Origin: Urechis unicinctus
Taxonomy: Eukaryota > Annelida > Polychaeta > Xenopneusta > Urechidae
NCBI GenBank assembly: GCA_034190875.2
Contig: CM067343.1
Coordinates: 23,362,861 to 23,426,860, forward strand
Length of the DNA: 64,000 nt
Direction of reading: 5' to 3'
Shown here: piece by piece, positions 13,701 through 45,949 of the stretch
How the letters are laid out: each line of letters starts with the position of its first letter
Position numbering within the stretch: the first letter of the stretch is position 1
Translations under genes and position numbers: made by a program
The notes under the pieces: model-generated
The model's input: the letters and a program-made list of their open reading frames with translations, nothing else
Database searches by the model: none
What the model was told of the DNA's origin: nothing

Positions 13701-13705
13701 CGAAT

Positions 13706-13860
13706 CAAAGTGGGGTCACTCGTAGATCCAGTAGAGGTCACGGTAATATTCACAGGTCATTGAAATTAAGTGGAATCACTGAGGGGGGTTAAAGCCGAAA
13801 GGAGTTGTTACTGGGATTAGGTTGATGTCATGGCAAGTATTAGAGGAGATCATTATCAAC
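13706..13860 (+). repeat. Degenerate short tandem repeat with GGTCA/ATCA cores
   Basis: Successive pieces near 13,711, 13,735, 13,755, 13,773, 13,825 and 13,847 carry variants of GTGGGGTCACT, AGAGGTCACGG, ACAGGTCATTG, GTGGAATCACTG, TTGATGTCATGG and AGGAGATCATT, spaced about 16-28 bases apart. This looks like a decayed minisatellite. AGGTCA is also the nuclear-receptor half-site, so clustered binding sites are an alternative reading, though spacing is irregular. Confidence 0.4.
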
Positions 13861-14840: not shown

Positions 14841-15269
14841 GTCTTTGAAATTCGCTTGCATGTTGCAGGCAGTTAAGGACGCTTATCGCAAAGCAGGTAA
14901 TTCACTGCATTACACCCACTGCATTTATATATTGGTCCCCATCTTTAATCTAGTTTTTTTTGGGTCATTTATTAAGATTGTGCAGATAGACACGTACTGG
15001 ATGGCACCGTCGCTTGGCCATATCTTGATACCTTTCAAAATCAATCATTGTACTATGCATAATGTGAATATACACATAAAGTTACAAAAAGAGGACATTC
15101 ATATATTGTTTAGCATGTAACCATGTAACAACATAAAGCAGGTTTTATAATAAAATATTAATAAATTTATGGTAGGTTTGTTTTATTGATTATTATCAGA
15201 GCGATGTACTAGACTGTGGTCGAGCAGCGAAATTGTATGAAATAAGAGGCTAGTTCGTAAGAAAAGGGT

Positions 15270-16190
15270 CGGTCCTGTTTGATCGACTTTTTTATTCATT
15301 GCAAGCTACACATGTATTGGTGTTATAAGAACGTAAAGTAATGATTTCGATACCTTTGAATTCATCTCGAAACACATTAAAAACATGTGGTGCTTACAGA
15401 GTAAAATTAATTTATGCTGTTGAAGACATGACTGCTTCCTCTAATTTGGCATACAAAGTCGCGCTCGTCAGCACCCAATCAGTAGATGAATGCCGTCATT
15501 CAATTGCACCTGTTCTATTGTGGCGCTTTTGCAATACCGACACAGACAAGCTTCAACCACCTGTAAGCTGGGTATCGACCTAAATCAAAATGGCCACTAT
15601 ACTGACAATATCATGACATCTGTCATTGCATTAATAGCTCACTTATTTTGCATTTATAACGTCCTGCAATTGATAGAAGTTGATTGGTTTGTGACGCACT
15701 GTAATTGACTATGATGTATGCCTGTGTTGACAATATAAAAACCATACAAAAAACATGCATGGGTTCCACATATGACAAATTATATGATAATAGGGATCTG
15801 AATTGAAATGGATCTATGATTAATTGTATCAGTTTAGAATGAACAGCCGGATGAATCATCTACAAATCGACCCACTAATTCTTCTGCAGTCGAATGATAA
15901 AAAACGCAACGTGAAATGCAAGCACAAACTTGAAAACGAGCATAATAACTCCGATAGGCGAAACGCTAGATTTAGCAGCCCATTTGTTGTCATTAATCCA
16001 TCGACAAACTCGTCTGGCTGTGAGAAAAGACGTATAAATGCCTTAATTATCAGTAAGGTTTGATCAATAATTGATCAAGAGAGAAGTTGATTTTTATTTA
16101 TGTTATTTGCTGAGTTGCACACATAGTGTTGGACATAGACAAAAGTTAGCTTTTTTATAGAAATTGCTGGTTCAAATGCTTATGTTTCTT
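15270..16190. other. Segment present only in X copy 1
   Basis: The X alignment stops near 15,255 and resumes at the minisatellite at about 16,195, whereas copy 2 goes from 39,290 to 39,225 almost directly. Either about 0.9 kb was inserted here or it was lost from copy 2. No terminal inverted repeats, target duplication or coding motif were found in it. Confidence 0.5.
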
Positions 16191-16198
16191 TTCGTGTT

Positions 16199-16393
16199 AG
16201 GAGCAATCAACATCTCCGCCAGAAGAAATTAACACCCCTATCAGGAGCAATCAACATCCCTATCAGGAGCAATCAACATCCCTGTCAGGAGCAATCAACA
16301 CCGTTTTCAGGAGCAACTAAGAACCCTGTCTGGGACAGTCAACACCGTTGTCAGGATCAATCAACACTCCGTCAGGAGCAATCATCAAACTGA
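16199..16393 (+). repeat. 22-bp minisatellite, about 9 units
   Basis: Units read like AGGAGCAATCAACATCCCTGTC with drift; most are 22 bp, starting at 16,199, 16,221, 16,243 and so on. An inverted version of the array lies at 39,085-39,221 at the matching place in module X copy 2, so the array predates the duplication. Confidence 0.9.
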
Positions 16394-17858
16394 CATATTG
16401 TCTTTGGTCATGGAAAATACAACGAACGAATGTGCTGGACGTATGTATAAGCTTGTTGTCTGACATTCACTGGTAGGTCGTGATTGACACAATTGTAAAA
16501 CACATGATTTAGGATGTAATATATGCAATAATAATTCAGCTTGTCTCACCTGCGAATATTTGTAATATGCGAAAGGCCCATTGTTACAGACTTTTACTAG
16601 CATCTCATCAACAGATTCATTCGTAGCGATATTGCAATATATCGCGTAATATCAAATGATGAGTCGTTGAACCTGCAAGTAACAGGAAGAAGAATCAATG
16701 TATGTTGTCCATACTCTGATACAAATGCGTAATAGGCATACACACCCACATAATATCGGCAAAATCAGCAAAGTCCTTTCAGGCAAAACATTAAGCAATA
16801 CACACAGATCGACATCGATATCGAGCTGTGTGCCTGGTCTATTCGTTAATTAGCACATTTCGGTTATTGACACATGTAATGCGGTAAGCAGATCACAGAT
16901 ATTGCCAATGTTATCGCATTAACATGCTTTGTCATCAGGCAGCTTATCTGGAGTGGGGTGTGTGCGGTCTACTTGGCATATATAGTAATCTTTTATAAGT
17001 GAAACGTGCAAGATTATATTGTTACTTGCTTGGCCCTACGAATGTCTAAGTTCATTCTCAAGCTCTGAGGATCTTACTGCTCACAATGTATTAAGAAGCG
17101 GTGTTCATTATAAAACCGTTAGTTTCCTTTCAAACCTCATTTATGAACTATTTGCATACTCACCGACTCTTGTTAGGTTATGCCTCGTCCCATTGGAAGT
17201 GATATTCAGAAATTGTGTAACAAAATTCGATTAAACATGGGTATCACGCGAGGCTCAATAATTTCGATCATGTCTAAATCAGATGTATCCAGCAGAAGGC
17301 AATGCCTGCTTGCTGGACTTAACTTTTTGTGTCATCTGTACTGACCATATCTTACAATCATAAGGAACGGATTGTTGGAGGGATTTCAGCTGAGACAGAT
17401 TAGCTTTATTGAACCGGTTGTCGGAAGAATTGTGACAATATACATGCGATGGTGTTAAGCAATATGAAGTTTGATGATAGCTAGATGAGGACATTACAGA
17501 TGCGCAATCATCGGCTTTACGCCTTATTAACTACACTCATGCGTACTCTGAGAGTAGGCTTTTCTAAAAGATTTATTCTTAACAAGAGCTCTTTACATAA
17601 TTAGGAGCGGAAATACGTTCACGTCGGGCATCGATGCTTTCAACAGATTGATATGACACTAGCTATCCTCGCAAAGCGGGAAGCGAATTCCGATTCTGCG
17701 CAACACGTACTTTTAGTGGTGAATTCCATCCGGTGAGGGCCATTGAAGTAGGCAGCTGTAGAGAAGCCAATATCCGGTCAACTTATTGTGAGCTCGAGCA
17801 AAGTGAACTTGTGTTAACTGTAATATGCTGTCTCCTTATAATGATAGTTAGCGCGAAC

Positions 17859-18221
17859 CTATGTTAAGTAAGGTATCTGCATGGGACTTGTAAATATGAG
17901 AGGTATAAGCTTAATCCTCCACTCGGCCTCAGCTGCTTGTGATGATGGTTTCATCTTTAGAAGATCTCGGTGATTTTTCTTTTTTTCTACGCCTGTGATT
18001 TTGAGACGAGTTTTAGTGTTCTTTCTTGTTGTTTCCTTGGATCCATTTATCGATGCCAAATGGGAAATAAGAGGTGCTTCTTGTGCTGTTTCTTGGTGAT
18101 ATATCAACACGGTTGCAGTTATCGCACGGCAAACAGTGCGTTTGATGCTATATGGGAAAAAAGACCGAGCTTTTACTCGAGCTCTGATTAGCTGAGAGTA
18201 GGGTGCCATGCGATAAGTCAA
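17859..18221 (-). CDS. 120-codon open frame between modules X and Y, unrecognised
   Basis: A Lys/Arg/Thr-rich frame from an ATG at 18,221 with pieces such as KARSFFPYSIKRTVCRA, HLASINGSKETTRKNTK and KMKPSSQAAEAEWRIKLIPL. The basic central part and ordinary residue mix look more protein-like than most frames here. I recognise no domain. It sits where X ends and Y begins; at the matching place in the other arm lies a gag-bearing retroelement fossil. It may be an old coding fragment of a mobile element, a host exon, or chance. Confidence 0.25.
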   Translation of the reverse strand: MTYRMAPYSQLIRARVKARSFFPYSIKRTVCRAITATVLIYHQETAQEAPLISHLASINGSKETTRKNTKTRLKITGVEKKKNHRDLLKMKPSSQAAEAEWRIKLIPLIFTSPMQIPYLT

Positions 18222-19201
18222 TATAGCATACTTGCAGCAATTGCCGTCCTTTTAATAGTATTGACAACAGAGCATCATCTTATGTGCTACTCTTTGAACA
18301 ATATTTTCTGCACATAATTCCTATCACGGAACAAGAATATTTTACATTTCATCCAAAAGAAGACTTTTCGTTATTTTTGGCCGACACTTTGTACAATATA
18401 GGATATTGGTTAGTTAATTATTGTTTTTCAAATTGTGTGGATGTTACTAATGATATTGCCAAGCCAAAAAAGAGAGACATTGGCTAGGGGCATATATAAC
18501 GCAAACATTTACATTTCTATCACGCATTGTCGATAAAGAGAACAGTCACCATTAACGAATCCTCGCATGTAATACCATGCAATATGCATGCAAATAGTCT
18601 GGTTGATCGTTCATCAAGCTAAATGTATCCCTGTGAAGTGAGTACTAATGGTCAATACATTCCTCGTCTAACAAGAACAAGGATCCCTGACGAGGTCCAC
18701 ATCGGTTATGCTGATATGTCATTTTAGTGACAGACGCTAGAGTAGATACAATCATGTCATGCATGATAATCCCGCTTCTGCCAAATATTACTTTGAGCTT
18801 AGGTTACAAACTATGCGTTGTGTTAGTCTTAACCATGGGAAAGGTGCGTTTGATAAGACCTCATATGTCATCTTACATCCTTTTTCTGAGTAACCACGTA
18901 TGCAGCAAATGTTGAGAGGAAACTACCATTACAAAGCACTCGGCACTTCAGTGCTGTCTTCAATCAATTAAAAAAGGTGAGTGTTGGCACAAATACATTT
19001 GCTATCCTTACAAACGTTGCTAAGACATTGAACGATTATGCTTTTATTTTGTATTCAATTATATATTAAATCATAACATTCCTGAATTGCATATTGCAAC
19101 TCTGACCGCAATAATATTATCAATCGGGCCATCTGCGAACAGATTACTTCAAAATACATGCTTAATTGAACGATGTTTTTCATCTCATGTTCTACGAATG
19201 C

Positions 19202-19218
19202 ATAGCCACTGTGGCTAT
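19202..19218. repeat. Perfect 17-bp palindrome in Y copy 1
   Basis: ATAGCCACTGTGGCTAT, two 8-bp arms around one base. The same palindrome is at 30,832-30,848 in Y copy 2, and its core (AGCCACAGTGGCT) is also at 2,072-2,084 outside any module. Confidence 0.85.
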
Positions 19219-21210
19219 AATAATGTTGATAAATTTTCGAACGAATAATTGAATGTTATAGCAAACTTGGTTGAACGTAAATGGGTGATATAGAAGTAAA
19301 TAACCTCTCCTTGTATGATTTGGGACACAAGAGCGTCAGTGTAAAAGTTTGCTGAACATTTAATATTTTTGTGACGTGTATCGGATTTTAACGCCAATAT
19401 TCCAGTTCTAAAGTGCAATGAAACAGTTTATACGCATATAGAGAAAGCACATTGAATATGAGTGGCTGATCTTTGTGAAAAATTTGGGCTAGTTTGAACC
19501 CGACTTTATCTTTGTTGCGCGATTTTACTGTTAACGAGTGGATATATTAACATAGGGCAATGTGCGTATTCGTTTCACAGGTTCGTGGCTGATACAGTCC
19601 GATCAATGAATGTGCAGGTTCGCATGTGATCAATTTTATTCTCATCTATTAGGAGCTAGGTAGGCTGACGAGATTTGCAACTTGCGATATAAATTATCAT
19701 TGCGTAAGCCACCATTAGAGGATATTGATTATTAATAATGTACAGCCCGCCAGGCAAAATTTCGCGCCTAATGTACATCTTGTGGCTAATCATGTGACTG
19801 ATCGCGTTTAGGTTGCATCATTTCAATGTGATGCTCGGTATATTTATAGTGTGGTATAGATTAAATGATCATTTGATGAGATGTACAATGCTGATGCGGT
19901 TAATATATTATTAATATTCTTAATGCATTGTTTTGCAAAATGTCACACTTTTAAACAAACGTACTCATGATGTGAATTTCCGTCGTTCTACATTATACGT
20001 GTAAATTTTGCAGCGTGATTTGCTGCTGGTATTTTTACAATCGTCACCGACTGCCCGGAAGGATGTTGCCCTAATGATAGCTCCAATGATGTACTGGTTG
20101 AAAGGTACCCCAAAGTTAATCAAGTAACGTCAACACAACCCGTTATCATCGCCTTATTATGCAACATCATTCATGCGAGCCATGTCGATATGTAAAAGGT
20201 ATGTGACGAAAAATGTTATGCAAGCATGTACTGCGGTCGTGAAGCATCATGACGCTGCACATTAACATTAGCATATTCTTCATGAAGCATTTTATCTAGC
20301 TATTTGCTGCAGGCATACCATCCGGCATATCTTCGAGACGTACTGGCGCTGTTTGGTACGGGTTGCAAACAATAACGATTGGCGTTGCAGATAATTTATC
20401 TCTAAATGTAACAATATCTCAGTACATGGGCTTACAGCATTGTTTAGTCCAATCAAATTTTTGCCCATGTAATCCGCTATCACAAGCCATACCCCTGATT
20501 GTCAAAATTGGCTAAAGTTAGAAAAGGAATTCACAGCCATCGACATCCTTTAATTGCTGTCTGAATCACTTAGACGATGTAATGTCTGGGACCTGTAGTA
20601 AAAGCTTAGGTTTTCTCGATTTTATATGGACTTCTTTCCGTCCAATTCATTGTTTTGTTTTACTCTTAACCTATTTAAGGGATATCTGTAGATCTTCAAA
20701 GCCGTGCGTTATACTATTTAAGTTGTACGCATCTATCATTACCAAGTGTCCCGATAAGTATGTCATCCTGCACTAGGTGGACTTGACAGGATATAGTGGC
20801 GCATTGATTGATAGCCGGGGGTATTCGTTTGATTCAACGCTCTATATATTGTATGTTACAGCCAAGCAGTCATGTTTAATTTAGTTCCCCATGGTAAAAC
20901 CAACACAAAGACTCTAGCTTCCAATTGTGGTTTGTCACGGTCGTTTCAGCTAGGAAACTAAACCCTTTATTGCGATTGCACCTTACGATGAACGCACATC
21001 TTTCTACGTACAGCGTGGAACTTTTTTGTTAAAAAATAGGTATTCGCAATGGAAACTGCAAACTGAATGCAAATGCAAACTGAATGGATGATTTGTCAAA
21101 GTAACAGCTTGTTACTACCCTCATTCCCCTTTCACAAACATCACTTACTTCAATAATTGATACTCACATTATATAGTATTCAAGGCAAACTATTGATCCA
21201 AGGGAAATAA

Positions 21211-21238
21211 GGGTGGGGGTTGGGGGGGGGTGTTTGGG
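21211..21238 (+). repeat. G-run cluster, G-quadruplex-type motif
   Basis: Reads G3-T-G5-TT-G9-TGTTT-G3, four or more runs of at least three G with short loops, which fits the standard quadruplex pattern. C-rich counterparts lie at the same place in Y copy 2 (28,589-28,601) and Y copy 4 (41,482-41,514). Tract length varies between copies. Confidence 0.85.
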
Positions 21239-23189
21239 TGGCGCACGTATGCATCCCGCAGATTGAGGGCTGTGAGTCCTGCAAATACCGAATGACAATA
21301 TGCGATTCCAATATCCGCTGAATGCTTATAACAATGAGCTTTGATGCCGGGCGTGTTGGCGCCTGTTTAATTTTATCACAATATTTGCGATATCTGGTAT
21401 CATTATTACACGCCGTCGATTATGAGCCAAATCATTACGTCTGATTGATAGCTTATTAACATTCATTTAAGCATGTACAGTGTAGCCGAATGATCAATAT
21501 ATCCTCCACTTAAATGAAACAACGCATGATTCATCTTCAACTTAATATGAGGAATTGGGCAGCATCTTGACATCATATTTTGTTCTTGCATCACTTTTTG
21601 TGTGTTGTGTCAAAGAAAACTGTATGTACAAAAACCCTATTCGCCGATCAAGTCATACCAGGTTATATTTCAAATGAATAGTCAAAGTGTTAATCTTTTT
21701 GAAGGCCGTGAGAGTGATACTACTTTATACATTTGACGAATTCATAACATTGGCACTTACATCGTATGCTATATCGGGTCCATGAATTAAAGCGCAGTGA
21801 GTTCAATTATAACTAAATTGTAAATTAGATATTAAAGACAACAGACAAGGGATAGACGACGTATTGCTATAACACATGGTGCTTTGAGCCAATGTAAGGC
21901 TTTAGTTTGCTCTGGTAAATATTAAGTTGGTGCACATGTAAATGAGCTCCGTCAACCGGCTGGGGAATTAAATCTGTACACTAGAACAAAGCACGCTCAT
22001 GCTTTAATTCAAGCAACTAGGGTCATCCATCATGTCTCTATATAATAACTACAGGTAATCTAGATCAATGGCTATACGGTTTTGGTTCTATGCTTGGTCG
22101 ATTCTGGAGATTATCCTTGAATAATATACCCAGTGTAAAGTAGACAATGTACTGAAAATGATATATTTGTGCGACCTTGGGATGAATACCAATTAGCCGT
22201 TGTGGGTGATTATGCTGATTAAGTTATCAAATGAAAACCAATATGCATCACTGGAATCCGGCGCTGCGTAGCTGCATCCGATTTAATCAGCTTTTACAGA
22301 TCTACATCAAAGCAAAGGTTTGTCGCCATAATGCGCGTTACAACAGTTTGTGTTTGTACATTCGGCTATGATTGTTTATTTGTAAGCCTATCTGTTCTAT
22401 GGTGGCAAGGCATAATAGCATAAAATATATGTTATTATGATGATTAGCCATTCCAGTATAATACATCAAAAGGCAACAATAAAACCCGATCCAAGGATGT
22501 ACGAGACGACGAATACATATCTCGCGCTGAGTACTGACGATTTGCACCTTGATATCATGACTATCATTCTTGACGCAAATCCCAAAATTCAGTAAATCTG
22601 TCAGTGAAAGCCACAATTTACACCTTAAAGTAGGTCCACGCAAAGCAAATATGAAAATGCCGATTATTGAAAGTAATTATTTAACGACCGACGAATGGTC
22701 GAGTTTTTCCCTTTATAGAGGCAATATTAAAACCTTCTGCATCCTTCCTTTCAGCCAGAAGGTTTCATTACATGTTACGCAATGATTCTACGCCATGCCT
22801 TGGAGTGTGTAAGCAGCTGCGTTACACTACTCCCTTCTGTTCCGCTTTTTTCTTAATAGCAATATTCCTAAAAAAGACAGTCGACTGTCTCATGATGCCT
22901 GAAATGTATTTGCACTTCGAAATAGCATTCTTTGCCCCCACTTTATCATTTTGCGACTTGTTTTTAAAAAAACCACTCTTATAGAGTAGTATCAACGATT
23001 GCAAGGTTAACTTTTGTCTGGTACAAATTGACAAAGCCACTTTTAAATTAAAAATATTCGACAAGAAAGCAAATCTTCAAGTGATAATTTATTGCTTTTT
23101 AAGAGAACGTAGGGACCCCTGTTTACCGTCAGTAATATCACTGGGTCGCTTAGGCAATTATGTCTGGAGCCTATTGAGGCCCGCAACGT

Positions 23190-23462
23190 TTGGAGACACC
23201 CATAATTAACGCAATTGCTTTCAATTATTCTGGTTTGAATCAATTGATCAAGCCACTGTCTGGGGAGATCCGCTTAATAACGTTAATGCTATGGGCTGAA
23301 GCTTCAATTAACTCTTGGCCAAACCATTTGAAAACATACATAAGCCCTTTAGCAATCGTACTTATCTGTACTTCCTTTATTACCCATGGCTTTGTCTCAA
23401 ACCCTTTACAATCTGGCGTAAAACGGGCGAGGCTATTGGGTAATTGGAGATGGTACGCCTGA
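23190..23462 (+). other. Open frame shared by both Z copies, unrecognised
   Basis: A 90-codon frame with a counterpart of 103 codons at 46,106-46,417. Shared pieces include AIAFNY, EIRLI, MLWAEASINSWPNHLKTYIS, FxTHGFVSN. Bases 23,286-23,351 are identical to 46,250-46,315 (66 of 66), well above the surroundings. The opposite strand is open too, so coding is not established. No family recognised. Confidence 0.3.
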
Positions 23463-24249
23463 CACAGATTGCTTTCAATCATATCTGACGCACTGGGGAT
23501 GGTTAATGGCATTCTGTCAAATCTTTCAGTACAGACATTTTATCTCACGGAGCTGCTAGTAAGCAGATTTTCCAATCTTTCATGCGTTAAGGATAGGATT
23601 TTGAACGAGGTCTTCGTTCAGGGATAATCATACACATATGTTAAAAGTGTGTGATCACGAACAACAAATGGCTGCAGTATACAACCATAAAATATGATTA
23701 TATATGCCGAGTAACGGGTTTGTGTGATGGGAGCAAATAATTAAAAAAATAAGTTGTATTAACCTACACAAATACCTATGGCCTAAACGGTTTTTTCGCC
23801 CTTGTCTCCTATTATCATACGATCTGGAACGGCCATAATTGTCAACCGTAGGGATATTTTGGTCAAGGTATGGACGTACATTAACAAACCGTCGTTACTT
23901 GATTTACCCATATATTAATGTTACAAAGAAAGGCTCACATGTATTGCCTTCCTTAGGGGGTTATACGTGAGGTAATATTATTTAGAAGACTGAATGTGGA
24001 CATCAATTGTTTCAGCATAATTGCGTCAAGATAGAACAGCATCAATACCGGGCCTAATGACTAATCCTCCAGCCTGAGGCAAGACATGCTGTCGACCAAC
24101 TGCAAACGTAATTTGAAACCGCACCCCTCTGCAAGTTACGGTCTTCTAGATTTGATTGAGATGTCCAAAGGTATTTATGGTAGTTTCCGGTCAGATCGCC
24201 CATATCCGGGCACACATGATTTGAATTGTAACACCTGATAATATTACCA

Positions 24250-24900
24250 CATGTGATGCTTTTTATTGCATCATCAACAAATGCCGTCGTTTGTGGCAAG
24301 TTGAGGGCCCTGCATATAAACGTATGTGTGCAGCGCAATTTGAAGAGCATATAGATCAGTAGTAAGTTGCTGTTTCATTTTAGGGATATACTGTCTTAGA
24401 CAAAATAGGACTTTGTTTGAAGCCAGGCAGGGCATGCTGGTTTTAGAGTGTGATGGGCACGTGTTTTATCGGTGCAAGAAGAGCTTCGTGCCGGCGGCAT
24501 GGGCTGAGCAGCCCGATAAGGGCAATGGGTTAGTGTCTTGTGTGGGCTGGCACATATTGGGGGATGCCCAAACATCACAACCACCCTCATTCATCGCCAT
24601 CGCGATAGCACCACGGTGTTGAAGCGAACGTAAATCCCTGTTATTACTATTACCATAACCATCAACTTAACCATCTTGAGTTACCAGTAACATCTTCAAT
24701 ATAGTCTATTAAGGAGATGCCAAGCATAGTGATCACATAATTACTCACATACATGTGTGTCAACTCAGAGAGGATAGCGACCCTAAGCTATTTTGTTGAA
24801 AATGATTGCGATGAACGTTATATAGTGCAATGCGAACACATATATTATATTGATTATGTTATTGTTTACTTGTTGTTTGTATTTTTGTCGCTGCAGGTAT
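24250..24900. mobile_element. Segment unique to Z copy 1, holding a FLYWCH-like remnant
   Basis: Z copy 2 passes from ...gttaccaca straight to gaatgttttat (47,175-47,190), while copy 1 has about 650 bp between the same two points. The segment is GC-richer than its flanks at 24,410-24,640. It is either an insertion in copy 1 or a loss from copy 2. No clean terminal inverted repeat or target duplication was seen. Confidence 0.4.
24413..24622 (+). pseudogene. FLYWCH-type zinc finger remnant, possibly from a Mutator-like transposase
   Basis: A 69-codon frame reads LFEARQGMLVLECDGHVFYR, CKKS, then W near residue 31 and CVGWHI near residue 44. This follows the FLYWCH layout: (S/T)xxGxxxLxxDGxxFxRxxxx, W, then a Cys followed by a basic/His-Ile end. 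The final part in the neighbouring plus frame (24,569-24,610) reads PKHHNHPHSS; an HNHP motif just after the finger is typical of FLYWCH proteins, including many animal Mutator-like (MULE) transposases. The reading frame therefore shifts between finger and HNHP, and the Cys after W (WxC) is missing. No MULE transposase core is visible downstream. A host FLYWCH gene fragment is the alternative. Confidence 0.4.
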
Positions 24901-26200
24901 CAACAGAATGTTTTATGTTTTATGTGGCTTGATTGTATGAAATTGTACATTTGGGGCCAAATTTGTTGCATATTGAATGTTTAGAATGTGCGAGATATGA
25001 ATATGCGAAGTATGAATCAATTGCTTTCATAAGATTTTCCTTGAATGAAAGCCGCACTCGACACATACTCTTTCGCTGCTGTCAATTAGCGTCTTGCTGC
25101 TTACGTCTAGATTACGTCAGTAACTTACGTCGACTTGTTACTGCTCCCCCTTAGCTTTCTCGCTGCTCTCGTTCAGCTTTTTTGTTCCTTAATGTTTTCC
25201 TATGTTGCCCCCACCTCTCTCTTATATTTATTAATCACTCTGTTTATCTAACATATTTCTTAAATTTCTATGAGTAAATTTGTTGTTTTTCTTTGGGTGA
25301 TTATGCAAAAAATTTAGTCGCTGCGTGGCGCTTCGGGTTATGAACAATACTCGCTTTTGTTGATGTCAAATAAGTGGATTGTTAAATCAAGCGATCGATC
25401 GAACGCCTGTCATATTCATAATGCACCTATTACTTTGTAATGTTACATCAAAAGCCTTCTTTACCTGCACATATCAACGCAATATGTTATTATTTTCATC
25501 TATTGTCTCGGTATGCTTCTTAGTGATTCAATAAATCCTATGAATGGTGAACATCAAACAGATTGCAGTTGGATATTTTGATTACCACATACACTTGCTT
25601 TAGTGATCAACATATTGTCTTCATAGATAGACGACTATCGTAAGCTATAAGTTTATATTGGGACTGTTTGTCCACAATTCGGCATCATAAAGAAGTTATT
25701 ACGGATTAGTGACATGCAATGGTTTTGATTGCAACAACATGCATGACAGGGTGCATAAATCGCGATGTGTGACACGAATGTGGCAGAGTTAAAGTGTTGA
25801 TTTGTTAACACTTGGACTGAGTCTCAAGACTGCTATCTAGAGGTCCCTTATCGGTTAGTAACATACGATCAGATTCATTTACCATCCACTCTCTAATCCT
25901 TGCTCATATCTAAGATGCCGACATTTAATACCAATCATTTTACTTGATATTCCGTTTCCAATTGGCTTAAAAAAGTAAAGGTATTTGATTATGCTGCTAG
26001 GTAGGATTGGGGCCTCATAGAGCCAGTCACATCTACAATTATGCCCTGTAATAGCCCACTTGGCCCCACTTGGTGTTCATTTGAAGAAAGCATTCGATTA
26101 ATTGGTTCATATTAATCAACAGCTTCTTCTTATGTAGAAGATTAAAGAATTGTTTTTTATACTGCTGGGGCAGAATATCGGCGTCTCGCTTAACTGCGAA

Positions 26201-28588: not shown

Positions 28589-28601
28589 CCCCCCCCCCCC
28601 C
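28589..28601 (+). repeat. C13 run, counterpart of the G-cluster in Y copy 1
   Basis: A run of thirteen C, preceded by tgcatacgtccat and followed by a stretch reading ttgatcaatagttttcc, the same flanks as the G-run of copy 1 when reversed. Confidence 0.9.
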
Positions 28602-30831: not shown

Positions 30832-30848
30832 ATAGCCACAGTGGCTAT
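30832..30848. repeat. Perfect 17-bp palindrome in Y copy 2
   Basis: ATAGCCACAGTGGCTAT, the counterpart of 19,202-19,218. The matching site in Y copy 4 (about 43,395-43,412) is degenerate (tatatgcggctgcatatt) and no longer holds the same core. Confidence 0.85.
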
Positions 30849-32559: not shown

Positions 32560-35500
32560 ATGCTTATGTGTCCATATCACACCAGGAGAGGTCATTTGCT
32601 TATATATCAGCCATTTACAGTCATTTTGTTATAAGCGGCTGCATTCCTAGTACATGAGATAATAAACGTCCTTTAATTAAGCATTTAATTTGGAGTAATC
32701 TGTTCGCAGACTGCCCGATGGATGAACTACTGTCATAGATGATGCCCACTTATTTAATATTATACTGTGTTCCTCGCATTGCTATGCTTTGTGGACAATA
32801 TTTTGGTGGTAATGGTACCAGCTATAGCTAATAAATCCAAATTCTGATGTTGTGTAAACGTGATAAAGTTCCATGCAGCAAGGTATTCCCATCACACTAT
32901 TGTTGCGGGATAAATAAGCTGTAACAATATCGTGAAATCCTCTCGAATTAGTATTGCAGATAGAGATGCAAAATGCAATTCATATATTTTCTGATTCCAT
33001 ACAAAATAGAATACGAAATGAAAGCACAGTCGTTAAATGTCTCAGATACGTTTGTCAGGAAAACTGATTACGTCACTGCTATGATTATTACAGCAAATGT
33101 ATTTATGCTTACAATTCACTTTTTTATCAGTTAAACAAAGCACTGAAGTGTCGAGCACTTTCTAGTTGTGCATTGGGATAGTAGTTGTTGCCTTCCTAAA
33201 CTAGCAGCATACGTGGTTACTCAGTAATAAATGTAAGAAAACTCTTGTAGGTTTATCAAACGCAGCTGAACGCATAGTTTTTAAAATAAACTCAAGGTAC
33301 ACGTCGGCAAGAGCGGGATTATCGTGTATGACGAGATTACTCTTGTGTCTGACACTAAAATGACATATCACCGATGTGGACCTCATCAGGGATCCTTGTT
33401 CTCTTTAGATGAGGAATGTATTGACCATTTGTATTCACTTTAAAGACAGACATTAAGCTCGATGAACGATAAACCAGACTATTTGCATGCATATCGAATG
33501 ATATTATTGCGAGGATTCGTTAATGGTGACTGTTCTCTTTATCGACAATATGTAATATAAATGTAAATGTTTGCCTTATATATGCACACAATTTGAAAAA
33601 ACAGTAATTAACTTAGCAAAATCTTAGATTTTATAAAATGTCAGTCAAAAATAACGATAAGTCTTCTTTGAGATGAAATATAAAATATTTTTGTACTGTG
33701 ATAAGAATTATTCGCAGAAAATATTGATAGTATCTACTGATACTAAGACCCACTAAGTAAACAGGCGCTGTAGACACAGTGCTAGCTTCCGTCGCACCTC
33801 TTCCGTATTATAACATAACGGTATGGCTATGTTTGTAACTATAATTAATACCAGAGCAAAATGCTATGTCAAGAATAAAAAAATAAGTAGAATACCCAAC
33901 CGCCGCTATTATCTATATCAATGTTTATTCAGTGCACACATGGGGACGTCGTAGCCCATTGAAATCACGCACTATTTTACTTGTTTGCGTGCTGTATTTG
34001 CAGAGTTCAGTAATACATTGCCGTATTTGACAAACACACACTGTTCCGCGGGGAAACACTTCATGTGGTCATTAACACCGATGTTCTGACACGCATTAGT
34101 ACTGTTATCATCTTATCTGTGAATCTAATAGAATATTCATTTCGCTGAACAACCCTTACACTGACAGTGCATTAAATAACATTGTAAGTCGTGGCTCGCG
34201 CGATTTTTTTTCAATTACGTTGGCAAGACCCGCTCTGATATATTGCATGACATGCTTATTGTGCCATTGTTTGTGGTGCTGTAAAGAAATATGCTCCTCA
34301 GAAATGTTAGCATTAACATAAAGCTCGAACCGTACCACATTCTAATTGTTAGACCAATCGTTCGGATTTTTGCAAGATATAGCATTATGGAACCCGTTGG
34401 TTTTCGCTTACGTTACCATTTATGCACGACACCATAACTGGAAATATTAGTTAGAAAAATATAATATCAATTATAAAATGCGGCATACATATCCATATTG
34501 TAATATGTTTGTTGTATTTAACAGCACGCAGGCAATACAAATCAGAGCGGAGAGGAGACAGTTACCTGGCAACGCGCTTTCTACAAATATACCTAGTCTG
34601 ATGATACACATCAGCCGAGAAGCTGATCGATTACAAGGGCCGTTGCCCGGCGTGTGCTGTAAGTATGTTGCTATATTGACATGACTTACGGGAATATGAT
34701 TCCCTCTATATAAATGTTACTTTCTATATTGCGTCAGAAGATTTGCAAAGACAATGCCTGGAGCCATAGATTGTACCCAACGAGATAGAGTGTGAGTCTT
34801 CTAATTAGGCACTAAACAACAATTTAGCTTTTGAGGCAAGTCGTCAACGTTAATAGAGCGACACATTCTAACTCGGGTGCAATGTCATCGAAAACGATTT
34901 GACCTAATTTCAGGACGTTTTGTACAATGTCAGATGCATTTAATGTACTGTGTAGTGATTTTGCACCTCTACCATTTCATTGTACAAGATTGGTGATAAC
35001 TACGGCAGTATGATATAAACACATGCAAGTCATGAAAGGGCTTATAACATTGACTCAAATCAATTGCGGTGTCATTATCTATGAAGCCACTGAATTGATA
35101 TTAGGCAAAAAGAGCGACCCCTTCTTGTCCATGCTGGCCAACAAACACATTAAATCAAACAGTTTATGCACTTTTTCTTACTAAACAGGTTTGACAGTCA
35201 ACAATATACGCTGCAATATGCATACGAACTTGATATACATCTTTTGTAGCGCAATTACAGATATCCATTCACTTGTGGCTCGTCATCGATATGGGTATTG
35301 ACCTGAAGGTAACGTATCGTGATTTGCTCACGATTATATTGCACGGTTACTACGCAGTTGTGGTAGGTACGGTGCTGTGAAGAAATGTCATTAACGCAAA
35401 CATATCAGATCTTCGCACGATTTTGTACATTGGCGTTTGAAGAAATAGCGCCAGATTGCCAAATCTCTTGCCGGAGGCAACACCACACAGTCAGTATGGC

Positions 35501-36350
35501 AAGCGAAGCTATTTGAAGTCACATCCTCCTGTCATTATTTCACTTCGGTTTTCCACTGACATGCTCCAGGGCAGCTGTAATGCACCACGTTATCATCGCA
35601 TCCACCATATGAAGCACATAATTAAACATTGATTATCATTGGTTAATGCTCTTGGATTATATGAATAATAACCCGAAGGCTTACTCTCTGGATATTCTCA
35701 CTAATCTGCTCTTCAATCCAATATTGATTAATACAATGGTTGTCTGAAAAACATCACTGATGGGCTTTGACTTGGTAGATTTGTAGATGATGCTTCGCAT
35801 ATTCCTAGTGTGTTTTTCGTTTTAGGCTCCGCCCAGTGGAATAAGGTTTCAGTTGCAAACAGCTTATCATGGATTCATAAAGATAGCAGCGTGCCTCTAA
35901 CTATATAAACGTCGGCACCATACGTTTTGGTATCGATGTAGAGCTAAGTATATCCGCATGCATCCAAAATCCCGGAACTGCATAATTTGATATTAGGTTG
36001 TATTTTTATCGACCCTGGTTTTTTACGTGTGGTTTGTATGCCTATATCATGAGGTAAATGATGTCGGACTTATCCATCACAAATGCATGTCATTGCCATA
36101 TATCGTTTTTGTCTATTTATAAGAAATATTGTATCGGGAAGTGTGGTGTAGAGATATACATAATTCGCACTTGTGGTAATGAAGACTCGAAATATAGGCG
36201 TAAGTTTGAGAATAACTTAAACTTATCTACTTTTGAATGTTTAAAGAGGAGCTTAAATGCTGGGGAGAGATGCGCTAAGCGCGGAGGCCAAATGTTGAGA
36301 AACAGGCTTATTGTTGACATCACCTGGAAGGATGTACTGCATCAAACTGA
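32560..36350 (+). repeat. Module Y, copy 3 (distal part only)
   Basis: Matches copy 2 from 30,715 onward (30,730/32,570, 31,850/33,545, 32,135/34,665) and copy 4 at its far end (34,660/44,105, 36,270/44,750). It carries a block (33,555-33,765) otherwise seen only in copy 1, so it did not arise simply by duplicating copy 2 as it is now. The first half of Y is missing. No coding frame of note. Confidence 0.8.
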
Positions 36351-36359
36351 TGACTGAGA

Positions 36360-37900
36360 GGGTACGTCATGATGATGGCTAGGTTTGTTGTCAATTTGGC
36401 ACTCAATGCCCAAGCATTCATAGTACCAGTAGAAGCTTCGTGCGACCATCCTAACTCTAAAATATTAAAGCTGACTATCCTTAAGAAGGTGTAAGTTATA
36501 CAAATGGAGCAGGAATATAGCCTGCGCAAGTCATATGCACACTGCTGGCGTTCATCGACGTGAGCTTTCCGAACTGGTGGGTCCATTCGATCCAGGCAGC
36601 AACGTGATACTTGAAGATCCTCGGCCGGTTGACCATGTAGTGGAGTCGTGTGTCAACGCCTCCTCTGGCTTAGCATAATCTGTCCCCTGGACTGAAGACG
36701 TTACCGAACTAGTACATATTCTAAAGTGCTGTGAACCGAGCACGGGAAGACAACCACACCTAGCAGAAATACTTAGGAGGACGGAATTTTGACTCTTAGC
36801 TGTATTTGTCCGAAAACCTTTGTTTCATTAACATACTGAAATGGTCTTGATTCCTGAACAATTCAAACAGGGGTTTACTTTGCAAAATAATTTAGCCAGA
36901 TACATACCAACTATGCAATTTATGCGCGCACTAGTGTCCATAAAGGCGATGTTATAACATTTTCAAATTTTGACTAGTACTGTCTGATCACTGAAAAGGG
37001 CGGTGCTGATTAAATTTAGGTGGGTAGTTTAAATAGCAGAATTTAGCAATGTGTCCCTTCCCTTTGCAATTGAAACATTGAATGGGGTCTGGGGTGGGGG
37101 TACGAAAATTATTGGTGTACATGTGTGATTTGCTTCGTTCACTGTCCCTGGAAATGTGACGAGACCTGGAATCTATTCTACTAGGACGTATACCTGAAAA
37201 GGACCTGGAACAGTTAAAACTGTCATCTGAGCCATCCCGGCTGTGCTGGCCTATCGCTCTATCTACCCTGTATAGGTGGTCCCTGAGACTGGTACCAGAA
37301 TTGCATGCCGAATTAATCGGTGCCTAGAATAGGACCTTCCGCGTCTATCGTGTTCCCTATTGGACCTATAGTTGTGGTAGGAGCGGTGGCGTTCTCTAAA
37401 TTGGTCAGGCAGGGAACATGACTCATGGGGCTGCTAACCTGGCATTGCCAAGACCGGATTTGTAAAGTACCCAAATGTATCTGTCGTCAAGGCTGTTGCT
37501 TGCTTGGCATAAGGCCCGTACGGGCCTCGGGGCGTGGCCAATACTGGCTGAGCTAGCCACCCACTTTGATCATTGGCTTTATATTCGGAGAGTTCTCCTT
37601 TCTGTCTCTTCAAACGTATGGTGCATTGACCCATTGAACTTGGTCATGAGATTACAAACAGACTGGCCTGTTTTCCTTTATCTGTCTTCCCTTTCCTGAA
37701 AAAAAAATTGAGGGACAGGTCTGCAAAGTTGGACACATTAAGCATCTTGTTATCTTAGTCTAGGGTTAAGTTTAAGTCTTGCCTAAATCTGGCCGCCATT
37801 TTGTCGGTCATTCCCGTAATTCGGATTCTTGAAAAAACACTTGAGAAGGAGAGGTAAGGGGTCCATAAAGACTCAATTTGAAGCTTTCCGTCGTCGGAAG
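36360..37900 (-). mobile_element. Gag-bearing retroelement fossil (minus strand)
   Basis: A GC-richer block with gag-like coding traces between Y copy 3 and X copy 2. At 37,036-37,077 the minus strand encodes a CCHC zinc knuckle (CX2CX4HX4C: CFNCKGKGHIAKFC). It is preceded by an Arg/Ser/Tyr-rich stretch and a Pro/Gly/Ala-rich frame (37,434-37,634), as in nucleocapsid ends of gag proteins. The copy is broken, with several interruptions. No LTRs, protease or polymerase were recognised inside the block. LTR-retrotransposon (Gypsy-like) is the most likely family, but a LINE ORF1 with zinc knuckle is not excluded. It looks old. Confidence 0.55.
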
Positions 37901-37919
37901 ATCGATAAGGCAATTACGC

Positions 37920-39700
37920 CTAAGTTCAATGGATGGAATTCACCACTAAAAGTACGTGTTACGCTGAATCGGTAGTTCGCTTCCTGCTTTGCAAGGACGG
38001 CTCATGCTATATCAATCTATTGTAAGCATCTACGCCCGAAGCCAGTATGGACGTATTGCCGTTTCTTATTATGAACAGATCTCTTGTTATGAGAAAAAAC
38101 TCTAAGATACGCATGAGTGTAGGTACAGTTTTCCATAATATGGCGTACAGCCGATAATTGCGCCTCTGTCGTTATCTGGCTATCATCAAAGTCGGTATAG
38201 CTTAACACCACATATATATTGCCAAGTTTCTTCCAGAAACCTTGTCAATATAGCTATTCTGTCTCAGCTGAAATCCCTGCAACAATCCGTCTTTTTGGAC
38301 CGTAAGTTATGGTCATCACATATGACACGAAAGGTTAGGTCAAGCAAGAAGGCATTGTCTTCCGTTGGATACTGTAGTTGTCTGATTTAGACTTAATCGA
38401 AATTCGCGTCGCGCCACACGTGATGCCCGAGTTAAATCGAATATTCTAACAAAGATTCAGAATATCACTTTCTTTTGGACAGTTCGTAGGGCCAAGCAAG
38501 TAACAATACAATTTTACACGCTTCACAAATAAAAAGATTACAAAGTGATGCTAAGTAGACCACAGGCACGCTACTCCGGATAAGTTGCCTCATACAAAAG
38601 TGGCATATCATGTTAATATGATAACATTGGCACGCTATGGGATCTGATTACCGAATAGAACGTGTCAACATCTGAACTGTGCTAATCAACCAATAGACCA
38701 GACACACAGCATGATATCGATGTCGATTCCTGTGTATTGCTTAGTGCTTTGCCTCAAGGGACTTCGCATCTGTATAAGAGTATACACATAATACCTTGTT
38801 TTTTTCGTCCTATTACTTGCAGGTTCATTTTATATTACGCGATAATTGCAATATCGCTATGAATGAATCTATTGATCAGATTGTACTAAGAATCTGGAAT
38901 AATGGGCCTATTGTATTATTGCATATTACAGATATTCACCGGTGAGACAAGACGAAATAACATGGCTGATATTACATCCTAATGTGTTTTACAGCTGTGT
39001 CAATCACGGCTTATCAGTGAATGTTAAACAACAAGCTCTTACACACGTCCAGCATAATCGGCGGCCTAAGCCAATATGTAGATTTGTTGATTGCTCCTGA
39101 CGGCGTGTTGATAGATCCTGAATATGGTGTTGACTGCTCCTGACAAAAATGTTGTTCGCTCCTGATAATGGTGCTGATTGCCCCTGACAGCGGTGTTAAG
39201 TGCTCCTGATACGGGTATTAATTAATCATATTTTCCTTTTAATTGTCAACTCCGCCCCCTCCAACCTAACGATCTAACGATATCGTCTCTTATTTCTTAC
39301 AATTTCTCTGATCCACAACAGATATCTATCAAAGTGCATCACTCGGACCATAATCGATAAAAACAATCCTACCATAAATATATTAACTGTTTGTGTTAAA
39401 CCCTACCTGATGTTATGCTATGGTTATATACCGTATGATTCACGAATGTCCTCTGATGTGTTACTCCATGTGTATATTCACAATATGCATAGTACAAAGT
39501 TTGATTTCGAAGCGTATCAAAAAATGGCCGAGTGACAGTGACTTCCGGCAAGTGTCAATCTGCATTATGTAAACAAATGAAAAGAAAACCAAGATTAAAG
39601 ATGAGGACCCATATAGATATGCAATCAGTGTAATGAATGATGAAGTGTACCACTTGTTTTGCGATAAACGTCCATAATTGCTGCAGTAAATCAAGGGCCT
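37920..39700 (-). repeat. Module X, copy 2 (inverted)
   Basis: The reverse complement of 14,860-17,760, shorter because it lacks the 15,270-16,190 segment. It begins about 20 bases after the gag-bearing block. The order Y3-fossil-X2 mirrors X1-ORF-Y1 on the left, so X and Y were neighbours before the inverted duplication. Confidence 0.8.
39085..39221 (-). repeat. 22-bp minisatellite in X copy 2, about 6-7 units
   Basis: Plus-strand units read like TGTTGACTGCTCCTGACAAAAA, the reverse complement of the 16,199 array. Units have drifted apart more than in copy 1, and the array is shorter. Confidence 0.85.
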
Positions 39701-40409
39701 GAACATCATCAAAGTGATTTGCAGCTCTTTATTGTCATAGGAAATCATATTCCGAATGGGAAAGCTAGAAACCGCGTTTCTGACTTACGCTCCATATCAT
39801 GTGAATAGGCATTTATTCAATTTAAATCCATGAAACGAAATTACGTCATCAGGTTGCAGAAAGCACCTCGGGAAATTTCTTCATCGAACATTCATTAAAT
39901 ACACACGTGATGTTTTTCAGCATCAATCTGTAAAGAAGCGATGTTTTGGTGGCTACAGCAATTAGCCGTTGGCGGTGTACAAGTAGTATCTGTTCAACAT
40001 AGACTCTCTATTGTATTGTAACTAACTTACACATTTGCGAATGTATCATATTGGCATGTATACGCTGGCAACACACAGCGTATTAACATAAGTGCTCTCA
40101 ACATAACCGATTAAATTTGAAACATATTCTGTGTTGCACTTTCGTTTATCTATTCATCTCAAAGATAAGTTATCATATCGGCTGATTGCGGAATTAGTAT
40201 TGCGCATACTAAAGCACTTTACAATTCTTTTAGTATGATTTGCAGCTTCAGAGCAAAAGGTAAAGGATTAAAATTGTGACGATGTCAATGGCCATATAGA
40301 TCAAATGCAGTGCTTAGATATGTGCGTCTGATAACAGCCTCTTTTTCCATTTTGGGCGTAAAACGTAGATAAAACCACTCTAGTGGCAAACGACACATAA
40401 CATTTTGCT
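39701..40409. other. Spacer between X copy 2 and Y copy 4, nothing recognised
   Basis: About 700 bp of AT-rich DNA with no open frame of note and no partner found in the window. Confidence 0.4.
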
Positions 40410-43400
40410 TAGGGAGCACAAATATATGGTTTCTCAGTTTATTGCCTACTTTACACTGGGTATGTGATCATCTGCTTATCTCTGGAATCGGCCAAGCATG
40501 GAAACAAAACCAGAGAGCCATTGATGTCAATCACCTCTAGCTTTTAACTAGACAAGATGGATGACCCTGGTTGTCAAGATTAGAGCAAGTGCGTGCCATG
40601 TTATAGTGAATCAATGTGATTCCCTAACCGATTGAGGTAGCTCATTTACATGTGCAGCAACTTCATGTTGAATTAGGCTTAATTGTCATAAAATGTTATT
40701 ACCTTACATTGGCTCAAAACACCATGTGTTATAGCAACAGTCCGTCGATCCTTCGTCTGCTGTATTTTATATCTAATTTACAATTTGGTTTTCATTAAAT
40801 TGTCTGCCCTTTAAGTGATGGAACCAATATTGCATACGCGGAGCGATGTTAGTGGCAACATTATGAATCCGTCGAATTCATGCAGTCGTGTAACTCTCCC
40901 TGCCTTCCGAAAAACTAACACTTTGACTAATCATATGCAATGTAACCTGGTAGAGTTCTATCGTCGAAGAGGGCTTTCGAACATATAGTTAACATCCACA
41001 CATCTCACAGCAAGTGAAGCAAGATGCATGTAAAGGTGCCGCCTCATCAGTTCATATTAAGTTGAAGATCAACCATGCCATGCCACTTGTATAAACGCGT
41101 TTGGTTTTAAACTAGCCTTCGTCGAAGCAATTGGCTTCCAGATCACGAGTTGCAGAGCTCGCCAGCCAGCCTTGTTTCATTTGAGGATATATTAATCATT
41201 TGGCTACACTGTCGATGCTTTAATGAAGGCCAGAGAACTACCAATTCGACAATAAGTGCGGATATTGAATTATATTGTATGAACTGCCTCGTTCGTAATG
41301 AATCTCCTCATAATCAACGGCGAGCAATAATGGTTCCAGTTTTCGTAAACCTTATGACCATAATAAACAGGCGCTATTACAACTCACGGCATCAAAACAC
41401 GTTGTTATAAGCATTCAGTGGATATTGGAATCGCTTTTTGCCATTTGCTAGTTGCAGCCCTCAATCGGTGTGTCACATACGCCCCCCCCCCACCCCTCCA
41501 CTCCGCCCCCAACCTTATTTTTGATTTGATCAATAGTTAACCTTTTTCTGCAAATTGTATTGACAATTATTCCCGATGCAACTAAGACACTTTATAGCGG
41601 CTTTGTATCCCAAATAATCGTGTTGAATCATATGCACATCAAATAAACACACCCCCCCCCAAACAGACAGAACTTGTGAGTAATTTGCCTTTGTGTTAAA
41701 CTAATGTGGTTCTCTGTCGCAATAACACCCCATGTAGCTGCTGCTCGGACAAGATAGTTTTGTTACTAAATCTTGTAGCTAGTTTGGCCAACTAAATGAA
41801 AAGCGATTATGTACAGAAGACCGAGTAATACTATATAATTATTTTATCAGCTATTGCAGTAAATTATGTTTGTTGAAGGAGGAAATAGCACTAATGTACT
41901 GTTATCTTCCATGTAGTTTGCATTTTAATTGAAAACATACACCGGTGCACTGCTTTATTGACTCTTAGTAATGAAAATGCATCTGTTCATAGTGACTAAC
42001 GGCGATACTAAGCTACTCAAGCCTAGCTGTAAACAAAGCATTCATCTCTCACACAAAATATTTATTTCACAATGCGAATACCTATACAGTTCGAACAATG
42101 TCTCGTGCATCATGTTAGCACGACATTAGTTCAACTATGTATGTAAATGGAGATCAATAGCGAATTTTCGTCCGATGTGTGTTCATTGAAATGTGCCATC
42201 GCAATAAAGGGATGACTCAGTGATTCAGTTTCCTTACTGAAACGACCTGCGAGAAATCACCATTGGAATCAAATGAATAACCATAGGGTATCAATCAAAG
42301 CGCCACTATATCCTGTCATATCTACCCAATGCTGTTAAGGCAAGTAAATGGAAAGTATGGCAATTAGGTGATGACAGATGCGTTCAACTTTTATATTATA
42401 TCGCACGGCTTTGATGTTCTACAGATGACCCTTAAAGAGTTTTGGAGTGAAACAAGACAATAAATAAAATGAAAACAATCTGTTCACATTCAATATGAAG
42501 TTGAGGAAAACTAAACGTTTGCTACAGGTCCCACACGATACATCTGCATAATAATTCACACCACAATTAAAGAATGGAAGATGGCTGTTAATATATTTCT
42601 TACTTTTTGGTAAATTTGATAATTAAGAGCCTGGCTTATGATTGGTGATTACATGTGTAAAATTATTAAGCTCTTACCCGTATAACGTTACTATCACGTA
42701 CCAATTAATTTAACATTCATTATGCTGTGCAATAAGGCGAAGGTTACGGTTTGTATTGACGTTACATGAGTAACTTGGGGCATCCTTTAAGCCAGTACAT
42801 CATTGGGGCTATAATTGGGGCGTCATAATGACGGACAGGCTTATTATGTTGAATGATGGGAATATACTTCATGAGAATGTTCGTTCAAAACGTCTGACTC
42901 ATTCGCATTCACAGCACAATACACTAAAACATTAATTTTACATTGACCGTTATCAGCAAAAATGATCATTGAATTGATACCACGATCATTCATATCGCAA
43001 ATTGCAGACCTCGTCAGCCCGCTCAGTTCATACTAGAAAAGAATAGAACAGATCATTTGCAAACCAGTACATTCGTAGATTGAACTATATCAGCCATGAG
43101 CCTAACAAAAGAACGCACATTGCTGTGTATTAAATTAGTCGACTTGTTTACAATACAATTGCCCACCGTATATAAAATCAGGTTCAAACTTACACACATC
43201 TTTGGCAAAGATCAGCCACGCATATTAAATGAACTTTCTCTATATGCGAGTAAAAAGTGCAGAACGAAAATATTGACGCTAAAATCCAATACGCGTCACG
43301 AAAATATTCAACGCATAACGAACTTTCATCCTGATGCCATTGTGTCCATATCACACCAGAAGAGGTCATTATGTATCGGCAATTTACAGTCATTTTGCTA

Positions 43401-44840
43401 TATGCGGCTGCATATTAGGACATGAGACGATAAACGTCTTTTAATGAAGCATTTATTTTGGAATAATCTGTTCGAAGACTGCCCGATGGATGAACTACAG
43501 GCATAGATGCTGCCCACTTATTAAATAGTATGCGATGTTCCCCGCATTGCTTAGCTTTGTGGACAATCCTTAGATGGTAATGGTACAAGCTGTTGATGAT
43601 AAATCCAAATACTGGTCTTGTTTAACCCTGATAAAGTACCATGCAGTAAGGTATTCCCTTCATACTACTGTTGATGAAAAAAGTAGCTGTAACAATATGG
43701 TGACATCCTCTCAAAGTAGTATTGCAGATATAGTTGCAATATGCAATTCATTTTCTGATTCAATACAAAATAGAATACGAAATGAAAGCATGATCGTTAA
43801 ATGTCTCAGCAACGATTGTCAGGATAACTGATTACGCCACTGCTACGCTTAACACTGTTCTGTTGTCAATACTGTTAAAATGACGATGGATCTTTACTGT
43901 ACAGTTGATATGATTTACTGATACTAAGACCAACCAAGTAAATCGGCGCTGTAGACACCATAACTGGAAATAACAACATGCAGGAAATACACATCTGAGC
44001 GGAGAGGAGCAAATAACCTTGCAGCGCGATTTCTACAAACATACCTAATCTGATAAGACACATCAGCTGAGGGGCTGATCGATTACATGGGTCGTTGACC
44101 GGCATTTGCTCTAAGTATGTGGCTATATTAACATGACTTACGGGAATATGACTCCTTCTATACCAATTTTACTTTTATATATTACGACAGAGGATTTGCA
44201 AAGATGATACCTTGAGCCATAGATTTCACGCAACGAGATACAGTGTGGGTCTATGCTGTGGAGGCAATTCGTCAACGGTAACAGAGCGACACATTCTAAC
44301 CCGGGTGCAATGTCATTGAGAACGATTGGACCTCATTTCAGGACGATGTGTACAATACCAGTCGCATTTAATGTACTGCGTAGTGATGTTGCGCCATTGC
44401 CATTTCATTGTACAAGGTTGTTGATAACTGTGGCACCATGATATCAAACCAAGCAAATCATGAAATGGCTTATAACATTGACTAAAATCACTTGCTGTGT
44501 CATTATCTATGAAGCCACTGAATTGTTGTTTGGCAAAATGAGCGACCCTTCGTTGTTCATGCTGGCCAACAAACTCATTATATCAAACATGTTATGCACT
44601 TTTTCTTATTAAACAGGTCTGACAGTAACACGATATGCACGATACGTACCAATGATAATGAAGACTAGAACTCCAGGCGTGGGTTACAGAATAACATCAT
44701 CTTATCTAATTTACTAAACCTTTTGAATGTTAGACATAACATTACCTAAATGCTGGAGAGAGATGTGTTGAGCTCGGAGGCCAGGGTAGAAATGCTTAGA
44801 AACAGGTTAATAATGTATAAGTGATTACTTCAACGTGATT
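40410..44840 (+). repeat. Module Y, copy 4
   Basis: Direct copy of 27,435-32,290 (27,480/40,455, 28,590/41,485, 30,730/43,345, 32,140/44,110), continuing at its end like copy 3 (36,270/44,750). It has lost several pieces, including much of the stretch matching 31,070-31,850. Together with the other three copies it shows that Y was multiplied in both orientations. Confidence 0.8.
41482..41514 (+). repeat. C-run cluster in Y copy 4
   Basis: Runs of C separated by single bases or short spacers, at the same place as the G/C tracts of copies 1 and 2. A second run of nine C lies at 41,652-41,660. The minus strand fits a G-quadruplex pattern. Confidence 0.8.
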
Positions 44841-44849
44841 ACCCAATGC

Positions 44850-45850: not shown

Positions 45851-45949
45851 AAACTGGTCAGATTTCAACCTCACCAAATCCAAACATATCTTTAATCCGA
45901 TATTTACGTTTCAAGTCCCGATAGACTACCTGTTATACAGTCAGACTTA

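Follow-up and report, generated by a model that had tools for sequence, protein, structure and literature searches.

Segmental duplications are usually delimited as blocks of at least 1 kb sharing at least 90% identity (PMC2566985). Large palindromes, with collinear blocks inverted within one scaffold, were described in the springtail Folsomia candida (n = 11) and, as cited in the same study, in the rotifer Adineta vaga (n = 17) and on the human Y (PMC5490193). Inverted repeats are also reported to promote inverted triplications at the human PLP1 locus, the so-called DUP-TRP/INV-DUP events (PMC4352052), and short inverted repeats act in the origin-dependent inverted-repeat amplification (ODIRA) of yeast (PMC10766183). 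Here we describe a locus of the annelid Urechis unicinctus (assembly GCA_034190875.2; 1,190,315,542 bases in 926 contigs), located on contig CM067343.1 (hereafter C2), where repeated modules named X, Y and Z very likely belong to a local, multi-layered segmental-duplication complex. The window, i.e., the whole stretch of 64 kb that was analysed, corresponds to C2:23,362,861-23,426,860, and coordinates without prefix are window positions. Beside it, DNA was read over 62.9 kb surrounding the window and over 200 kb leftward (C2:22.90-23.10 Mb); C2:23.10-23.33 Mb is known from matches alone.

Self-comparison of the window revealed two X, four Y (A to D) and two Z copies at 14.8-50 kb, in mirrored order and with an average identity of 72-84%. 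The initial annotation, made from the letters of the window, had noticed this arrangement on both strands, with a further Y and Z to the right, and its diagonals are clearly seen: 59 self-matches were obtained at E 1e-5 within 14001-50000, compared with 0 in 20 dinucleotide-preserving shuffles of the same part. It had also proposed a search of the modules against the whole genome to separate a mobile element from a local duplication, and the outcome points to the latter. Indeed, five of the six module probes matched contig C2 alone, and 84 of their 85 matches lie at 22.80-23.45 Mb. The X probe (38475-39215) has 10 matches, all on C2, and the Z probe (46200-47000) has 16, all within C2:22.80-23.41 Mb. 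Similarly, part of a module R (54837-56422) occurs on C2 in five copies at 93-100% (itself included), of which the left cluster holds three and the right one the other two, as well as in a mirrored pair at 75-76%. On the contrary, a control repeat from window 1-1750 is dispersed, its main matches lying on many contigs at 94-96% (40 of 1055 candidates scored), and a zinc-knuckle piece at 36461-37506 has at least 51 matches on many contigs. Since five probes are confined to C2 while the control repeat is dispersed, the X/Y/Z modules very likely form a local segmental-duplication complex and not a giant mobile element.

These modules are embedded in a much larger inverted structure. The window is matched, inverted, by C2:23,045,519-22,972,879, a mirror copy lying 0.32 Mb away, through a chain of 45,728 bases at 94.9% identity (about 1.0 kb of which consists of overlapping rows in an AT microsatellite); an alternative chain from the window to the left arm has 44,507 bases at 94.8%. 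At a larger scale, the right cluster (23,338,768-23,430,300) is inverted to 23,066,757-22,983,517 over 66.6 kb of aligned sequence at 95.0%, and 23,412,389-23,456,860 is inverted to 22,983,513-22,938,374 over 35.5 kb, also at 95.0%. The two alignments share part of their right-hand side, which is explained by a direct duplication within the left arm (22,968,619-22,983,515 with 22,983,574-23,001,775; 12.4 kb aligned, 95.3%). Three further pairs of matches in unread DNA are mirrored, namely P450 fragments at 23,113,034(+)/23,306,766(-), R at 23,169,417(+)/23,260,112(-) and X at 23,174,665(-)/23,254,608(+). Taken together, the arm alignments and these pairs locate the centre at 23.20-23.21 Mb, and the mirror pattern can be followed up to about 40 kb from that point. 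As assembled, the locus is therefore a palindrome of about 0.5 Mb with arms of roughly 0.2-0.25 Mb. The extent of about 30 kb initially given to the duplication was understated in this respect: the modules are real, and they belong to about half a megabase of one chromosome that underwent several rounds of copying onto itself, mostly in inverted orientation.

Smaller inverted pairs are nested in both clusters. In the left one, 22,949,582-22,982,447 pairs with 23,090,758-23,060,926 (94.1% over 24 kb) and 22,983,515-23,025,517 with 23,072,863-23,048,870 (88.8%), and another inverted pair reaches 94.7% over 4.3 kb. The right cluster includes 23,338,768-23,356,150 with 23,419,697-23,403,276 (90.8%), 23,335,621-23,338,770 with 23,453,653-23,450,503 (97.6%) and the inverted A/B nest (82.6%). 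Among the youngest events seen is a 5-kb tandem duplication at 98.7% (C2:22,931,930-22,941,886; L012:1930 to L013:1886).

Identities of self-matches of at least 400 bases peak at 74-82% and 94-96%. Read from identity, the layers are the old X/Y/Z modules at 72-84%, further inverted pairs (about 89-94%) and, at about 95%, the young doubling by the palindrome. Trees were built for three Y segments, two of which (Y5 and Ym) hold window copies A, B and D, the third (Y3) holding B, C and D. A and B in Y5 and Ym, as well as B, C and D in Y3, pair with the opposite-strand copy at their mirror place with a support of 0.98-1.00. In Y5 and Ym, D is left without a partner, its mirror being devoid of that part. 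Branches between different Y slots are much longer than those between mirror partners. As Y copies join their mirror partners and slots remain far apart, the old nest predates the young palindrome, which doubled it. The dispersed repeat at 1-1750 also has a counterpart at the mirror position of the left arm, so that it was probably inserted before the young palindrome arose. In long alignments, identity is about 80-82% for the Y pairs A-B and C-D and 72-77% for the remaining ones; two Y lineages (A-B and C-D) are nevertheless not relied on, the short-segment trees not all being in agreement, and in one of them A is nearest to the Y copies at 23.05 and 23.35 Mb.

The two arms diverge by unequal gains and losses. 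The window has 3.4 kb (4207-7631) and 4.6 kb (9474-14102) in excess of the left arm, the left arm has 2.6 kb more at 32552, with X- and Y-like sequence, and a chain difference of 14.6 kb in the left arm lies at the site of its direct duplication. Neither X2 nor the 5' part of D is represented at its own mirror place, whereas the left arm, between its B and C, matches window 38748-39914 (85.8%) and 41445-42267 (84.3%). We infer an ancestral series Y-X-Y-X-Y that was trimmed differently in each arm. One reading offered by the initial annotation was that a large block had been duplicated in inverted orientation and had then undergone losses and insertions; confinement to C2, the larger enclosing inversion and the losses and insertions visible in the arms agree with it. 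Between 14.5 and 50 kb, most 250-base bins are 93-99% identical from arm to arm, with scattered low bins, and slot B is patchy relative to its mirror (52-94% at about 26750-31750). For 13 of the 250-base bins, a copy other than the mirror is more similar: B includes two of them (30001 and 30501), two others are located below 50 kb, and the remaining nine lie past 50 kb, in a part already duplicated within the left arm. These patterns suggest exchange between copies.

The mechanism behind this local complex may be outlined as follows. In each round, replicative template switching or ectopic recombination would have occurred between inverted repeats left by earlier rounds, palindromes would have seeded further palindromes, and exchanges between copies as well as element insertions would later have reshaped the arms; this course of events requires no function. 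What is directly seen is the locality, a range of ages, inversion at more than one scale, inverted pairs that overlap although their centres differ, and unequal losses. Match ends show no single hot point, the largest cluster comprising 9 of 907 matches. Template switching, or recombination, between these earlier repeats is a mechanism that we infer from the arms, the palindrome centre and its junctions lying in the part known from matches alone, which counts among the points against our interpretation. Others concern symmetry: X at 23,279,208, Y at 23,197,662-23,198,993, P450 at 23,301,428 and several matches of the sixth probe, including 23,249,021, are without mirror partner among the matches listed. 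The sixth probe, taken at the Y 3' end, has 24 of its 56 matches off C2; 22 of them fall in 44638-45151, six adjoining places matched by the zinc-knuckle piece, and the other two correspond to a partial Y relative (Y 3' end) on contig C12. The remaining match of the other five probes is a lone relative of the Y 5' part at 71% (C2:23,944,344-23,945,284), about 0.5 Mb right of the complex. Aligned bases at 90% identity or more amount to 161 kb inverted vs 88 kb direct, and those below 90% to 108 kb inverted and 96 kb direct. Finally, the basis for exchange between copies is a few 250-base bins.

Other explanations were weighed against local duplication. A giant mobile element family inserted repeatedly at the locus, which the initial annotation had offered as its second possibility, would account for multi-kilobase repeated units on both strands, and the embedded retroelement pieces and the partial Y relative on C12 could be cited in its favor. 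It is however hardly credible given that five of the six probes stay on C2 while other window repeats are dispersed. Moreover, Y copies have no common ends: at least four different 5' start points were found. On the scale of copy B, the start lies at 26729 in two copies (23.049 and 23.356 Mb), at 27091 in A and in its mirror, at 27245 in three copies and at 27439 in D, three more copies starting only about 1230 bases into Y, and the 3' limits differ too. At seven module copies, no exact flanking direct or terminal inverted match of more than 6 bases was detected in the short flanks compared, with ends as placed by alignment. Six-frame Pfam scans of 14801-36702 and 37801-49902 at E 0.01 yielded no transposase, integrase, polymerase or reverse transcriptase domain, in line with the earlier remark that no module encodes an intact transposase, and 35101-38102 (E 0.1) gave a weak zinc knuckle only (zf-CCHC, 15.5 bits, below the 20.8 cut-off). 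The statement that no named family fits holds for element families, but the kind of structure does have a name, that of segmental-duplication complex. An assembly artefact, with the other haplotype placed inverted on C2, would touch only the young 95% layer and leave the older nest real. About 95% identity could be allelic divergence in a highly heterozygous organism, and collinearity of the arms extends across the whole window; yet R in five copies at 93-100%, together with left-cluster pairs at 94.1%, 94.7% and 95.3%, exceeds what two haplotypes give. Insertions and losses between the arms also amount to 3.4 kb and 4.6 kb within the window, as well as 14.6 kb in the left arm, and no N is present in the window or in pieces L001-L028 and L036 (a count made without L029-L035). 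The copy number at 93-97% within one cluster speaks against an allelic origin as the whole answer, and we regard such an artefact as improbable.

A decayed gene cluster amplified under selection is conceivable, although we would not favor it; the gene would be the edge P450 or an unrecognised fast-evolving one, with the modules as its introns, exons and flanks. P450 fragments do occur at five C2 places in the complex: at the left edge (C2:22.900 and 22.911 Mb; L009:654-1247 and L010:619-1140) in a repeat of about 10 kb in tandem, where the Pfam p450 score is 29.7 bits, and at 23.113, 23.301 and 23.307 Mb, with other relatives at C8:0.65-0.72 Mb. However, four of the five main C2 matches contain stops and, among the DNA read, P450 is found at 22.900-22.912 Mb alone and not in the window. 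With at least 101 matches across the genome and C2 pieces that are fragments outside the window, P450 was ruled out as the amplified gene of the window. Module Z offers further arguments, being present in a partly 10-kb-spaced series at 22.80-22.86 Mb and more conserved in its first kilobase than in the remainder. The share of synonymous differences is 0.21 on average (SD 0.08; 638 open 40-codon bins, all frames), and the highest bin, 46291-46410 in the longest open frame of Z, reaches 20 of 41 (3.5 SD up), the second-best being 22292-22411 (3.3 SD up). This bin may be taken as a mild hint of coding in Z, but the next one in the same frame (46411-46530) has 3 synonymous differences out of 37 and the frame is broken in other Z copies. 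Few variable sites fall in one of the three phases at Z 171-680 (14/87), whereas a coding sequence is expected to have one phase that varies more than both others, and not one that varies less. Altogether the X/Y/Z modules showed no convincing coding signal, and the window looks like non-coding passenger DNA. A bolder version of the local-duplication reading is that inverted repeats without any selected gene repeatedly templated inverted duplications at almost one and the same site during a long period, from about 73% to 95% identity, so that structure drove its own growth; we hold this self-seeding scenario to be doubtful. If true, and if transcribed through, the locus would yield long double-stranded RNA.

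Features of the window and of its inverted counterpart are collected below.

Table 1. Positions of modules and associated features in the 64-kb window.
Feature	Position	Strand or alignment	Remarks
Module X, copy X1	14864-17736	+	self-comparison; holds 22-bp minisatellite 16195-16384
Module Y, copy A	18217-22519	-	mirror partner C2:23,029,721-23,035,355
Module Z, first copy	23030-26141	+	self-comparison
Module Y, copy B	27091-32277	+	sequence from 26729 onward common to copies at C2:23.049 and 23.356 Mb
Module Y, copy C	32540-36311	+	without 5' half
Degraded retroelement piece, zinc-knuckle stretch	36461-37506	-	open frame 36988-37323 minus; relatives dispersed
Module X, copy X2	37926-39685	-	strand opposite to X1
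Module Y, copy D	40411-44811	+	begins about 350 bases inside Y as B defines Y
Stretch with dispersed relatives, read as retroelement piece at D end	44638-45151	not assigned	off-C2 probe matches
Module Z, second copy	46000-49921	+	self-comparison
Module R	53536-57674	+	part 54837-56422 multicopy on C2
Whole stretch, inverted collinear with C2:23,045,519-22,972,879	1-62937	about 45 kb aligned, 94.9%	both copies carry insertions and losses

The window contains 10 open reading frames of at least 100 amino acids and has a CpG observed/expected ratio of 0.87. Pfam six-frame scans (X at stops) covered 1-12002, 14801-49902 and 51901-63902, with E limits of 0.1, 0.01, 0.01 and 0.001, the parts outside the scans being 12003-14800 and 49903-51900. 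The scanned parts gave no convincing domain except the weak zinc knuckle; DUF805 (0.0015) and GRXCR1-2_C (0.0018), with one match each, were taken as chance, as were SUKH_5 (3.8e-5) and DUF3915 in the left flank, where a small part of the 200 kb was scanned. Rfam yielded no match in the window at gathering scores, nor was any tRNA found there. A weak RNase-H-type reverse-transcriptase match, below its cut-off, lies at the left edge of the complex. Long AT-dinucleotide tracts and a TC tract are present at 9357-9473, 59930-60256 and 54254-54332. Five more plus-strand Z copies lie at C2:22,800,739-22,864,649, three of the four gaps being about 10 kb, and each is split by about 0.5 kb of extra sequence near query position 100. 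The Y-like stretch of C12 is interrupted by 3.9 kb holding an open frame of 370 amino acids (L036:2890-3999) with a Cys-rich C-terminus and no Pfam match. Elsewhere in the genome, P450 matches of near-equal score lie on opposite strands at C9:45.70/45.86 Mb and C7:35.44/35.72 Mb, which hints at other inverted duplications.

Compared with the systems described so far, the young layer (94-95% over tens of kb) lies within the limit set for segmental duplications and the old layer (72-84%) below it. The complex resembles the human low-copy repeats LCR22 and LCR16a and the 15q25 GOLGA core-duplicon complexes by its duplicated blocks with inversions, concentrated regionally. As these are commonly presented, it differs from them by an older layer under the usual 90% and by the fact that no core gene was found. 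Similarly, it shares with the palindromes of Folsomia, Adineta and the human Y two long inverted collinear arms on one scaffold, here one chromosome, two of those blocks also being reported with internal copy-number change (PMC5490193). The palindromes of that study were found as collinear genes, unlike the arms read here, which are almost gene-free and in which several inverted pairs of unequal age overlap. Inverted extra copies arising where inverted repeats, whether long or short, serve as template-switch sites are a feature of DUP-TRP/INV-DUP and ODIRA that this locus would share, but these are recent events of patients or yeast with analysed junctions, in contrast to the old events of this locus, which are known from their arms. 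Among invertebrates, the sea urchin Sp185/333 (SpTransformer) clusters provide another case of local segmental duplications with short tandem repeats; they are made of immune genes (PMC5103432), and no such gene was recognised here. A literature search for inverted segmental duplications of molluscs returned a single, unrelated review.

A 64-kb view of such a locus can resemble a new element family, which calls for caution. Successive duplications can be read along a single contig, a small inverted nest having been duplicated in full within larger inverted copies, and the locus is well suited to ask whether inverted repeats alone predispose to more inverted duplication. Its kind is already known from the systems above, and its notable features are the readable nesting of ages and the lack of any recognised gene.

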